Source: an uncultured Alphaproteobacteria bacterium | Lineage (GTDB): Bacteria; Pseudomonadota; Alphaproteobacteria; HIMB59; GCA-002718135 | DNA: 64,000 nucleotides | Direction of reading: 5' to 3' | Assembly (NCBI GenBank): GCA_902621855.1 | Contig: CACNNQ010000001.1 | Span: forward strand, 372,001-436,000 | In this document: positions 1,645-9,761 of the stretch, in pieces | Position numbering within the stretch: the stretch's first letter is position 1 | Layout: each line of letters starts with the position of its first letter | The notes under the pieces: generated by a model | Seen by the model: the letters and a program-made list of their open reading frames with translations, nothing else | What the model was told of the DNA's origin: nothing | Database searches by the model: none | Program-made: the position numbers and the translations under genes

Positions 1645-2250
1645 TTACTTGGATAATTTAATTTTACTTTCAGTTTTATTTAGCAGTCTTTTAATGTTTT
1701 CTGTGTGTTTAAGATAAATAATTAAACTTAAATAAATAAAGAATATTAGAATATAAAAATTAAAATTAATAAAAATATAAAATGCTGGAGCTACTAAAAT
1801 TCCAATTAAAGATCCAAGAGAAGAGTATTTACTTACAAAAGCAGTAACAAGCCATACTAATAAAAATAAAATTGCAATGTAAGGATTAAAACCAAATAAA
1901 AAACCAATATACGTTGCTACTCCTTTTCCGCCTTTAAATTTTAACCAAACAGGATAGATATGACCTAATATGGCAAAGTGACAGAGAAGTATTTTAATTA
2001 ATAAAGAAATATCTTGAAAATACATTTGTAAAATGAGGAATGGAAGAAAGCCTTTAAGAATATCAAAACAAAGAACAATTAATGCTACAAATTTATTTCC
2101 TGTTCTTAAAACATTTGTTGCACCTACATTTCCAGAACCAACCTTTCTAATATCTCCCAAACCAAATAATTTTGTAAAAATCAATGCAAAGGGTAATGAT
2201 CCTATTACATAAAATAATATGATTAATGATAAACTACTTACTAAAGTCAT
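1645..2250 (-). CDS. plsY: Acyl-phosphate:glycerol-3-phosphate acyltransferase PlsY
   Basis: Inner-membrane enzyme that moves the acyl group from acyl-phosphate to glycerol-3-phosphate, the first committed step of phospholipid synthesis. The 201 residues match the family length. The three family motifs are present: SGNVGATNVLR near residue 40, the GHIYPVWLKFKGGKGVAT stretch near residue 95-112, and a later hydrophobic block. About five membrane segments are visible. The gene overlaps the end of pyrB by 17 bases, so the two are translationally linked. Its acyl-phosphate donor would come from PlsX, encoded at 36.6 kb in the same window. Confidence 0.96.
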   Translation of the reverse strand: MTLVSSLSLIILFYVIGSLPFALIFTKLFGLGDIRKVGSGNVGATNVLRTGNKFVALIVLCFDILKGFLPFLILQMYFQDISLLIKILLCHFAILGHIYPVWLKFKGGKGVATYIGFLFGFNPYIAILFLLVWLVTAFVSKYSSLGSLIGILVAPAFYIFINFNFYILIFFIYLSLIIYLKHTENIKRLLNKTESKIKLSK

Positions 2251-3379
2251 CTCTATTTTTAATAATTAAGTCTAAGCATGCCATTCGTACTGCAACGCCC
2301 ATAGCAACCTGTTCTTGTATTAAGCTTCTAGTGATATCATCGGCAAGTTTTGAGTCTATTTCAACACCACGGTTCATTGGACCTGGATGCATAACGAAAG
2401 CATTTTTTTTTGCATATTTAAGTTTATTGTAATCTAAACCATACTTTTTAAAATAAGTCTTTTGATTTGGCATTATTTTTCCAACTATTCTTTCTTTTTG
2501 TATACGTAGCATCATAACAATATCACAATTTTGTAATCCCTTTTTCATTTCCGTATAAACATTCACAGGTAGTTTATTTAAACTTTTTGGTAACCACTCC
2601 TTAGGTCCAATAACATTTATTTTTGCACCTAACTTTGATAGTATGATTATGTTTGATCGAGCAACACGGCTATGTAAAATATCCCCGCATATAGCAATTT
2701 TTAATTTTGAAAAATTTTCAAATTTATTTTTTATAGTAAGTGCATCTAATAATGCTTGTGTGGGATGCTCATGACTGCCATCACCAGCATTAATTACAGA
2801 CGCATCTACTGTTTCTGAAATTTTTTTACTAATTCCTTCCTCTGGATGTCTTACGATTAAAACATCTGGATTCATTGAATTAATTGTAGTCATAGTATCA
2901 AGTAATGTTTCTCCTTTATTAATAGAGCTATCTTTAACCACTACATTAATGAGATCTGCTCCTAATCTTTTAGCAGCAACTTCAAAACTTGTTCTTGTTC
3001 TTGTTGAATCTTCAAAAAAAAGATTAAATATTGTTCTTCCTTCTAGAATATTAATTTTTTTAATTTTCTTTTTATTGAAAGATATGTATTTTTTGGATTC
3101 ATCTAAGATATGCTCAATTTCTTTTTTAGTTAAATCTGCTGTTTCTACTAAATGAATTTTCTTAAAAATTTTTTTTGTTTGCTTTAATTGTATATTTGTT
3201 TTTGTAGAAAATGAGGAATAATATTTTAACGCTATTTTTTCTGCATCTTTAAGAATTTTTGAACCTGTAGAGGATCTGATCGCTTTTAATTTAGGCAATT
3301 TGACTTTCATTTGCCAATATTTTGAATTTTCTCTTTTATATAATTTTATATGTCCTGATTTAAGTAGTTTTGAATTCAT
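2234..3379 (-). CDS. pyrB: Aspartate carbamoyltransferase with an integrase-like N-terminal extension
   Basis: Condenses carbamoyl phosphate with aspartate in pyrimidine synthesis. The ATCase core is complete, with carbamoyl-phosphate motif STRTRTSF at residues 125-132, then GSHEHPTQALLDALTI and HPGPMNRGVEID. The protein is 381 residues against roughly 310 for the family, and the excess lies before about residue 76. Residues 10-58 read GHIKLYKRENSKYWQMKVKL, then an RSSTGSK turn and an alanine-rich helix ending KYYSSF. That is the pattern of the N-terminal arm-DNA-binding domain of phage-type tyrosine integrases. I see no in-frame ATG, GTG or TTG between about residue 29 and the core, so at least part of the extension must be translated. 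The usual downstream partner pyrC is absent. Confidence 0.93.
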   Translation of the reverse strand: MNSKLLKSGHIKLYKRENSKYWQMKVKLPKLKAIRSSTGSKILKDAEKIALKYYSSFSTKTNIQLKQTKKIFKKIHLVETADLTKKEIEHILDESKKYISFNKKKIKKINILEGRTIFNLFFEDSTRTRTSFEVAAKRLGADLINVVVKDSSINKGETLLDTMTTINSMNPDVLIVRHPEEGISKKISETVDASVINAGDGSHEHPTQALLDALTIKNKFENFSKLKIAICGDILHSRVARSNIIILSKLGAKINVIGPKEWLPKSLNKLPVNVYTEMKKGLQNCDIVMMLRIQKERIVGKIMPNQKTYFKKYGLDYNKLKYAKKNAFVMHPGPMNRGVEIDSKLADDITRSLIQEQVAMGVAVRMACLDLIIKNRDDFSK

Positions 3380-3406
3380 ATGTGTTAATAATGTGTAAGT
3401 ATGTGT
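3380..3406. repeat. Three ATGTGT repeats at helical spacing before pyrB
   Basis: ATGTGT occurs at 3380-3385, 3391-3396 and 3401-3406, with periods of 11 and 10 bases. On the pyrB coding strand these are ACACAT units inside the 35-base gap between ruvX and pyrB, ending at the pyrB start codon. Repeats one turn apart are what a DNA-binding protein recognises on one face of the helix. Arm-type sites of integrases and ordinary regulatory boxes are both possible. Confidence 0.6.
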
Positions 3407-3414
3407 AAACTAAT

Positions 3415-3876
3415 TTATAAATTATTTCTATATCTATCTAAATATCCTTGTAAGATATAAGCAGCTGATTGTTGATCAAGTTTACTTTTTATCTTTGTTT
3501 TACTTAAATCGGCTTTTCTCATTTCTTTAAAGATTACATCTGATGAAAATCTTTCATCCCAAAGAACCGTAGGTTTTTTAAAAAAGGTTTGAAGATTAAT
3601 ATTAAAATCTCGCACTAATTTGCTTTGTTTATTTTCAGTATTATCCAGGCTAATCGGCAGACCAAGAATAAATCCACCAATTTCATACTCATTCAAAATA
3701 TCTTTCATGATGTTCAAATCTTTGTTAGTTCCTTTTCTTTGAATAATTGAAAGCGGTGTGGCTATTATTTTTGATCTATCACTTACAGCAACACCAATCG
3801 TTTTAGTTCCTAAGTCTAGACCTACAAGTATTTGTGATGTATTAAGGCCATCGATTAAATTATTTTGATCATTCAT
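3415..3876 (-). CDS. ruvX: RuvX/YqgF-type Holliday junction resolvase-like / pre-16S rRNA nuclease
   Basis: RNase H-fold nuclease of the YqgF family, which matures the 5' end of 16S rRNA in E. coli and has also been called a Holliday junction resolvase. Motifs include ILVGLDLGTKTIGVAVSD with the first catalytic Asp, GGFILGLPISLD, and WDERFSS. The final acidic motif lies in the LDQQSAAYILQGYLD region. I chose the ATG at 3874-3876 (MNDQNN). A 13-codon longer reading from 3915 would run across the start of gatC and has no family support. The gene is divergent from gatC with only 17 bases between start codons, so the two promoters must overlap each other or the opposite gene. Confidence 0.92.
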   Translation of the reverse strand: MNDQNNLIDGLNTSQILVGLDLGTKTIGVAVSDRSKIIATPLSIIQRKGTNKDLNIMKDILNEYEIGGFILGLPISLDNTENKQSKLVRDFNINLQTFFKKPTVLWDERFSSDVIFKEMRKADLSKTKIKSKLDQQSAAYILQGYLDRYRNNL

Positions 3877-3893
3877 GTAATGGAGCTCATAAA

Positions 3894-4181
3894 TTGAAGA
3901 TTGACAAAAATACAATAAATAAAATTGCCCGTCTATCTAGAATAAAGTTAGATGGTACAGAATCTGAAGATTATATTAAGGATCTTAATTCCATTTTAGA
4001 CTGGGTTGAACAATTAAATGAAGTAAATACTGAAAATATAGAACCGTTAAGTAATATATCATCATCTATTTTACCAAAAAGAGAAGATGTATCTAAAGAT
4101 ACTAATTCGAGTGATGAAATTCTTAAAAATGCCCCTGATAAACTTGAAGGTTTTTTTGCAGTACCAAAGGTGGTAGAATAA
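3894..4181 (+). CDS. gatC: Glu/Asp-tRNA amidotransferase subunit C
   Basis: Small structural subunit of the GatCAB amidotransferase, which converts Glu-tRNA(Gln) (and often Asp-tRNA(Asn)) to the amide form. The 95 residues match the family: opening KIDKNTINKIARLSRIKL, then LNSILDWVEQL and the proline-containing linker near NIEPL. The start is a TTG at 3894, supported by a GGAG at 3882-3885 eight bases upstream; I see no usable ATG. The stop codon overlaps the gatA start as TAATG. This is the first gene of the gatCAB operon. Confidence 0.93.
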   Translation: MKIDKNTINKIARLSRIKLDGTESEDYIKDLNSILDWVEQLNEVNTENIEPLSNISSSILPKREDVSKDTNSSDEILKNAPDKLEGFFAVPKVVE

Positions 4182-9669: not shown

Positions 9670-9761
9670 GGAGAGATGGGTGAGTGGCTTAAACCACAGG
9701 TTTGCTAAACCTGCGAAGGAAGTAATTCCTTCCGAGGGTTCGAATCCCTCTCTCTCCGCCA
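9670..9761 (+). tRNA. tRNA-Ser (anticodon GCU)
   Basis: Acceptor arm GGAGAGA (9670-9676) pairs with TCTCTCC (9751-9757), followed by discriminator G and an encoded CCA. The anticodon stem CAGGT/ACCTG encloses loop TTGCTAA with anticodon GCT at 9704-9706. The T arm is GAGGG-TTCGAAT-CCCTC. A long variable arm (GGAAG...CTTCC) marks it as a class II serine tRNA. It reads AGC/AGU codons. dapA begins 13 bases downstream. Confidence 0.98.

Follow-up and report, generated by a model that had tools for sequence, protein, structure and literature searches.

An aspartate carbamoyltransferase with an N-terminal extension

We analysed a 64,000-nucleotide stretch (the window) of the 1.48 Mb assembly of an uncultured alphaproteobacterium (GCA_902621855.1, contig CACNNQ010000001.1, positions 372,001 to 436,000), in which the pyrB open reading frame (window positions 2234-3379, minus strand) starts with ATG and encodes 381 amino acids (aa). 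By its domain scores PyrB is an aspartate carbamoyltransferase (ATCase), with matches to OTCace_N and OTCace of 146.4 and 77.2 bits against curated cut-offs of 29.9 and 29.4, and its catalysis and trimeric assembly are predicted. The STRTRTSF and HPTQ motifs, which are typical of aspartate carbamoyltransferases, are both present. An initial annotation of this DNA, which named no strand, had given a length of 381 residues and placed STRTRTSF at residues 125-132; both values were borne out on the minus strand (the motif begins at 135 in the stop-to-stop frame, which holds ten extra residues before the ATG). The catalytic chain covers residues 72-381 and the stop codon (2234..3166, minus strand; PF02729, E-value (E) 8.5e-43; PF00185, E 1.9e-21). 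The Pfam match to ATCase begins at residue 76, and no Pfam match lies N-terminal of it.

The N-terminal part divides into a putative integrase-type arm-DNA-binding domain of residues 1-58 (3206..3379, minus strand), delimited by the profiles A1 and A2, an AlphaFold2 (AF2) model, the ratio of nonsynonymous to synonymous polymorphism (pN/pS) and charge, and a linker of residues 59-71 (3167..3205, minus strand), which was delimited by pN/pS and alignments and varies in length among relatives. The segments GHIKLYKRENSKYWQMKVKL, RSSTGSK and KDAEKIALKYY, on which the initial annotation had based an arm-DNA-binding domain, are present in the extension as quoted there. Its further claim that no start codon separates the extension from the enzyme holds for residues 29-146, which contain no ATG, GTG, TTG or CTG, so that the enzyme part (from about residue 72) has no ordinary start codon of its own; it does not hold inside the extension, where ATG24 and TTG28 follow ATG1 in frame (the next start is GTG147). 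Core-binding and catalytic integrase domains were not found in PyrB, whose Pfam matches are the two ATCase domains only.

Upstream of pyrB, a gap of 35 bases leads to the gene at 3415..3915 (minus strand), which we take to be ruvX. On the coding strand this gap ends in three copies of ACACAT, separated by ACTT and TATTA and followed directly by the ATG. Repeat 1 (3401..3406, minus strand) lies at -27 to -22 from the ATG, repeat 2 (3391..3396, minus strand) at -17 to -12, 10 bp after repeat 1, and repeat 3 (3380..3385, minus strand) at -6 to -1, 11 bp after repeat 2 and adjoining the start codon.

Homology of the PyrB extension to integrase N-termini

A profile of 10 diverse PyrB extensions (A1) was searched in 385 genomes spread evenly over the class, and it recovered two pyrB genes and 17 other places. 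Sixteen of these 17 are N-termini of tyrosine integrases or integrase fragments, with frame lengths between 67 and 551 aa. The remaining place (L128) gave a weak and incomplete match (E 0.0099) that we did not class as an integrase. Four of the integrases were compared with Pfam, and all of them match integrase SAM-like or catalytic models. Since only two of the four pass the curated cut-off, this integrase family is poorly covered by Pfam; the other A1 places were identified as integrases by sequence reading and similarity. In the reverse direction, a profile of 14 integrase N-termini that contains no PyrB (A2, its members chosen from the A1 matches) was searched in 61 genomes comprising the window's own genome and its relatives. 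These relatives fall into two families, f1, which we take to be GCA002718135, and f2, which includes a single-contig 1.41-Mb genome (G061) and appears to be the HIMB59 family; PMC10734472 compares families GCA002718135 and HIMB59 and gives AG-891-K05, a near relative of our genome (locus L037), as the reference of genomospecies GCA002718135-1.A. A2 detected the PyrB extension in 28 of the 61 genomes (E about 1e-13; range 4e-15 to 1e-8) and it was the sole match in each; the assemblies of nine other f1 genomes contain no PyrB N-terminus, and the 24 f2 genomes yielded one match (E 0.07) with a stop inside. Direct alignment of A1 and A2 with hhalign gave a probability of 99.1 (E 5e-19) over 56 columns, although this result carries less weight than the searches of the genomes, which were free to match anything, because the members of A2 were picked by A1.

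In both kinds of protein the domain begins a few residues past the start codon (MIKHSILGNKVHVYKREN in the integrase at L116, MNSKLLKSGHIKLYKREN in PyrB), and alignment A4, made up of 21 PyrB and two viral integrases, has eight invariant residues (Y14, R16, N18, S19, W22, Q23, R35 and L43). The viral integrases come from a scan of viral contigs with one integrase as query, which gave three loci, two of them covering the N-terminal domain; the same scan found no relative with A1 and none with a second integrase as query. The extension has 15 lysine or arginine residues against three aspartate or glutamate residues. Its AF2 model (predicted local distance difference test 87) has strands at 2-6, 11-15, 22-26 and 34-37 and a helix at 43-61, and thus fits the arm-domain layout of a three-stranded sheet (11-15, 22-26, 34-37) followed by a helix, plus the strand 2-6. 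A beta-sheet followed by one helix is also what had been expected in the initial annotation, and the reciprocal matches of PyrB extensions and integrase N-termini support its assignment to the arm-DNA-binding type. Homology between the PyrB extension (about 58 residues) and the N-terminal DNA-binding domain of tyrosine integrases is thus strongly supported by these comparisons.

Libraries of known families did not reveal this relationship. Searched alone against Pfam, NCBIfam, PHROGs, PDB sequences and phage records, the extension had no integrase match, which is formally an outcome that the initial annotation had set, together with a predicted disorder, against its own reading. Nine matches to phage records were weak (E 0.6) and came from Prevotella phages whose records bear no annotation. 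One relative matched two PHROGs of unknown function (E 0.15 and 0.2; neither an integrase), and for each of five Pfam families a single one of the 10 members gave a match (E 0.04-0.16; none an integrase); all were rejected. Compared with the arm domain of the HPI integrase (3jtz, 3rmp) and an AP2 domain (6sy0), the extension model showed 7-12% identity, and unrelated chains scored equally. A model of full-length PyrB was unreliable and was set aside. Within the window's own genome, a search for an integrase that could have supplied the domain found one PF00589 gene (L152) only, and the A2 matches there are to PyrB only; a candidate second arm domain (E 0.06, with a stop inside) was unconvincing.

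Conservation of the domain and its upstream repeats

Among the matches listed (80 of 102 candidates), we assembled 79 pyrB loci, on which the counts for 73 and 74 genomes below are based. The extension is intact in 73 of these 79 loci and in the window's genome, and is therefore neither a chance product nor the result of one bad assembly. The six other loci, which were dropped to leave a set of 74 genomes (mostly close relatives), comprise four cut by contig ends (L095, L099, L102, L106), one with a frame break (L091) and one Rhodospirillales outgroup without the extension (L108). The frame break in L091 (G028:C7), which may be real or a sequencing error, falls near PyrB residue 60, between the extension and the ATCase part.

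Exact ACACAT copies stand at -27, -17 and -6 in 48 of the 74 genomes, and all 74 have at least one exact copy there. In distant f1 genera the repeats occur at 11-bp spacing, with three copies at L262 and L263 and two at L260 and L261. For the comparison of upstream bases we used 73 genomes, leaving out L092, in which an extra in-frame ATG precedes the start. Mean pairwise difference was 1.8% at the twelve CACA core positions, 22.8% in the spacers and 37.0% at pyrB four-fold sites, and the core variation was confined to repeat 1 of two distant genomes (L100 and L101). The flank from -33 to -28 and the spacer positions -21, -9 and -8 are also conserved, so the conserved block somewhat exceeds the repeats. 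Within the protein, pN/pS was 0.229 for the domain (residues 8-58), 0.614 for the linker and 0.110 for the enzyme. The low ratio of the domain, the near-invariant CACA cores and the joint absence of domain and repeats described below indicate that both have been held by selection, with the linker much freer.

The repeat arrangement appears to be specific to pyrB. ACACAT-N4-6-ACACAT occurs in the window's own genome at pyrB only, and a triple CACAT occurs once per genome in 33 of 101 genomes, never twice and by coordinates always directly before the pyrB start (the reversed control gave one occurrence in the 101 genomes). A search for a wider regulon with exact repeat patterns, in the own genome and these 101 genomes, thus returned pyrB only. 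With two mismatches allowed, the own genome has one further place (G000:C10:5651), and the reversed control also has one match. A promoter scan detected no promoter-like site at the pyrB repeats.

Tandem repeats upstream of integrases with the same domain

After removal of the two pyrB places, A2 gave 59 places in the 385 genomes, and we counted 5-mers recurring at a period of 10-12 in the 300 bases upstream of each. ACACA ranked top of all 1024 5-mers, recurring in this way at 16 of the 59 loci, and the next five 5-mers overlap it; shuffled sequences gave a mean of 0.055 and a maximum of 1, the opposite strand gave 0, and the spacing peaked sharply at 11. ACACA pairs precede 13 of the 30 best-scoring domains versus three of the 29 weakest. 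The 59 loci include near-identical ones and several integrases of one genome and are not 59 independent cases; in addition, the pairs had already been noticed by eye, and although the 5-mer count was made without assuming them, many of its best loci were among those noticed before. The two viral relatives have ACACA-N6-GCACA, which is the pair with one base changed. Tandem ACACA is likely to be the arm-type site for much of this integrase family.

At L115, L116, L117, L118, L119, L121, L124 and L129, tandem ACACA with an 11-bp period was observed a short distance ahead of the integrase start, often closely preceded by a tRNA gene. Of the 28 integrase loci scanned, 15 had a tRNA gene (two of the 15 repeat an already counted place), and at L116 about 60 bases separate the end of this gene from the repeats. 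One locus (L120 / L179; G478:C1:425377) has an orphan frame of 67 aa that consists of the integrase domain only, with an ACACA pair upstream. This frame is an integrase remnant, in a state that might come before a capture such as the one considered here.

Gain and probable loss of the extension

Across 162 genomes of the order, the extension is present in 82, which belong to five of seven genera and are all f1. At all 18 f2 loci read, pyrB has a normal N-terminus without the extension and directly follows the preceding gene, which is a RuvX relative in the eight of the 18 that were tested (the other ten read alike). The comparison across relatives thus finds the extension in f1 and none in the f2 loci read, and it supports the proposal of the initial annotation that the 5' end of an integrase was captured at the junction of ruvX and pyrB.

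Among 13 f1 genomes, six have the extended PyrB (G482, G523, G524, G526, G527, G529) and one, the only genome of genus g280 (G528), has a PyrB without it. The remaining six (G019, G054, G060, G483, G507, G525) have a weak carbamoyltransferase match at 26-32% identity, presumably an ornithine-type enzyme, or nothing, and their lack of PyrB fits incomplete assemblies. In G528 (locus L264) the repeats, the domain and the linker are all absent, and pyrB can start at a new ATG six bases past the ruvX stop. A CACA pair upstream of pyrB is likewise absent from the 18 f2 loci and from G528, and is present in four other divergent f1 loci. In a tree of RuvX, PyrB and PlsY with an f2 root, G528 falls in a clade with four extended relatives (support 100/100), which makes joint loss of domain and repeats the simpler history; placing G528 outside the rest of f1 costs 11.8 log units, and this topology is not formally rejected (approximately unbiased test, p 0.055). 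The Rhodospirillales row, a long branch, was left out of the later trees, and its place inside the family in the PyrB-only tree was taken as an artefact. Domain and repeats were probably lost together in g280, and this locus provides a natural deletion for comparison.

Capture of an integrase 5' end and putative autoregulation

The above analyses strongly support the capture of an integrase 5' end. Homology, the order of the parts and the insertion site are shown by them; that the capture was a single event and that the pyrB repeats are arm-type sites we infer. A tyrosine integrase gene associated with a tRNA would have contributed its 5' part, made up of the start codon, the N-terminal DNA-binding domain and, shortly ahead of these, tandem arm-type sites. 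In the ancestor of f1 this piece would have come to lie between ruvX and pyrB, joined in frame to the latter. The initial annotation had left open whether the domain is now only a linker or binds DNA; the integrase-type repeats upstream, which it had missed, shift the case towards a retained DNA-binding function. Overall, we think it probable that the integrase 5' end was captured together with its arm-type sites and that PyrB, by binding to its leader, controls its own expression.

Selection would have kept both domain and sites since the capture, with PyrB most likely binding its own leader. The active form of ATCase is a trimer, whose three flexibly linked arm domains could each occupy one of the three sites, spaced by about one helical turn, directly before the start codon; the match between three trimer domains and three sites is suggestive only. 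Ample PyrB would then block transcription or early elongation of pyrB, giving negative feedback, and we can speculate that binding of substrate or nucleotide might tune this repression. PMC2951348 describes IntS, the integrase of prophage KplE1, as a repressor of its own promoter, where promoter and attachment region (with the arm-type sites) overlap; the same autorepression is predicted there for the majority of tRNA-associated integrases and confirmed for three further genes. A captured 5' end would bring such an autorepression loop with it. On balance, we favour the idea that one capture supplied both the domain and a ready-made operator, and that the ATCase trimer reads the three leader sites in a one-gene feedback circuit.

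The effect could extend to two genes downstream, as plsY overlaps pyrB and topA follows. The gene that we take to be plsY (1645..2250, minus strand) has its start overlapping the pyrB end by 17 bp (2234-2250), and the presumed topA (2-1594), which follows it, runs off the window. The three are possibly joined in one transcript, a putative operon. No other gene (e.g. pyrC) lies between pyrB and plsY.

Several other explanations were weighed against capture with autoregulation. The fusion could be a fossil in which the domain is kept for the start codon it gives pyrB, the repeats serve as promoter or ribosome entry site of the captured gene, and no specific DNA binding is left. The extension must indeed stay in frame given the lack of an ATCase start codon in residues 29-146, the domain evolves faster than the enzyme by pN/pS (0.229 against 0.110), and conservation reaches into the flank beyond the repeats. 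However, pyrB of g280 manages without domain and repeats from a new ATG adjoining ruvX, the residues kept include those common to viral integrases (Y14, R16, W22, R35), and several spacer bases change freely between the three conserved cores without any change in length, a pattern that suits binding sites better than a ribosome site. We consider a fossil unlikely, if the most serious of the alternatives. That the same kind of repeat stands beside pyrB and beside integrases with the same domain, and that domain and repeats are absent together, would be left unexplained if the domain had its role within the enzyme, in oligomer assembly, stability or allostery, with the repeats bound by another regulator. 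This is improbable in our view, even though class A ATCases have N-terminal extensions that take part in assembly and effector binding.

A role in host defence, with the arm domains of PyrB acting as decoys that occupy the arm sites of incoming elements and hinder their integration, would be in line with the match to an integrase family that has the same kind of repeat. Yet A2 found no such integrase in 37 f1 genomes, where PyrB was the sole match, and a decoy does not explain conserved repeats at pyrB itself, which makes this role highly improbable. We give almost no credence to an untranslated extension followed by an enzyme whose translation would begin near residue 72 from a rare start codon: the ATCase Pfam match does begin at residue 76, but residues 29-146 offer none of ATG, GTG, TTG or CTG, the frame is open in 74 genomes, and the domain pN/pS of 0.229 speaks for translation.

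Significance and comparison with known systems

At pyrB, a fragment of a mobile-element recombinase and its apparent cognate sites have been turned into part of a core metabolic gene. If PyrB does regulate itself, this ocean bacterium with its streamlined genome has a feedback circuit made of one gene. The case offers a candidate mode of pyrimidine control in bacteria with small genomes, and it raises the testable question of how new regulatory circuits can arise without co-evolution of factor and site, as both seem to have arrived together here. Our analysis also predicts the binding site (ACACA at an 11-bp period) of an integrase family that no library model used here matched in its N-terminal domain. 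No report of an ATCase-integrase fusion was found in the open literature searched, a coverage that excludes most subscription journals; the HIMB59/AEGEAN-169 literature found contains no paper with pyrB, and the terms 'carbamoyl' and 'integrase' are absent from PMC10308909.

Tyrosine integrases with the same N-terminal domain (such as those at L116, L117 and L121, many of them beside tRNA genes) resemble PyrB in carrying the domain near the start codon and in having the same kind of tandem ACACA repeat, with a period of about 11 bp, shortly upstream on the sense strand. Unlike them, PyrB has no core-binding and catalytic parts, its domain is fused to ATCase, and no tRNA gene adjoins it (the nearest in the window is at 9670). 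Trigger enzymes, which also bind DNA to regulate genes, include PutA, NadR and BirA, as well as PepA and PyrH in pyrimidine control. PyrB would be like them an enzyme with gene-regulatory DNA binding, here a predicted one, and would differ in that its DNA-binding part, and probably its operator, derive from an integrase. A parallel for the circuit is IntS of KplE1, for which negative autoregulation has been shown (PMC2951348): both are DNA-binding proteins, PyrB by prediction, with sites at the start of their own gene. Unlike IntS, which is a recombinase, PyrB is a metabolic enzyme, and its regulatory role is a predicted one.
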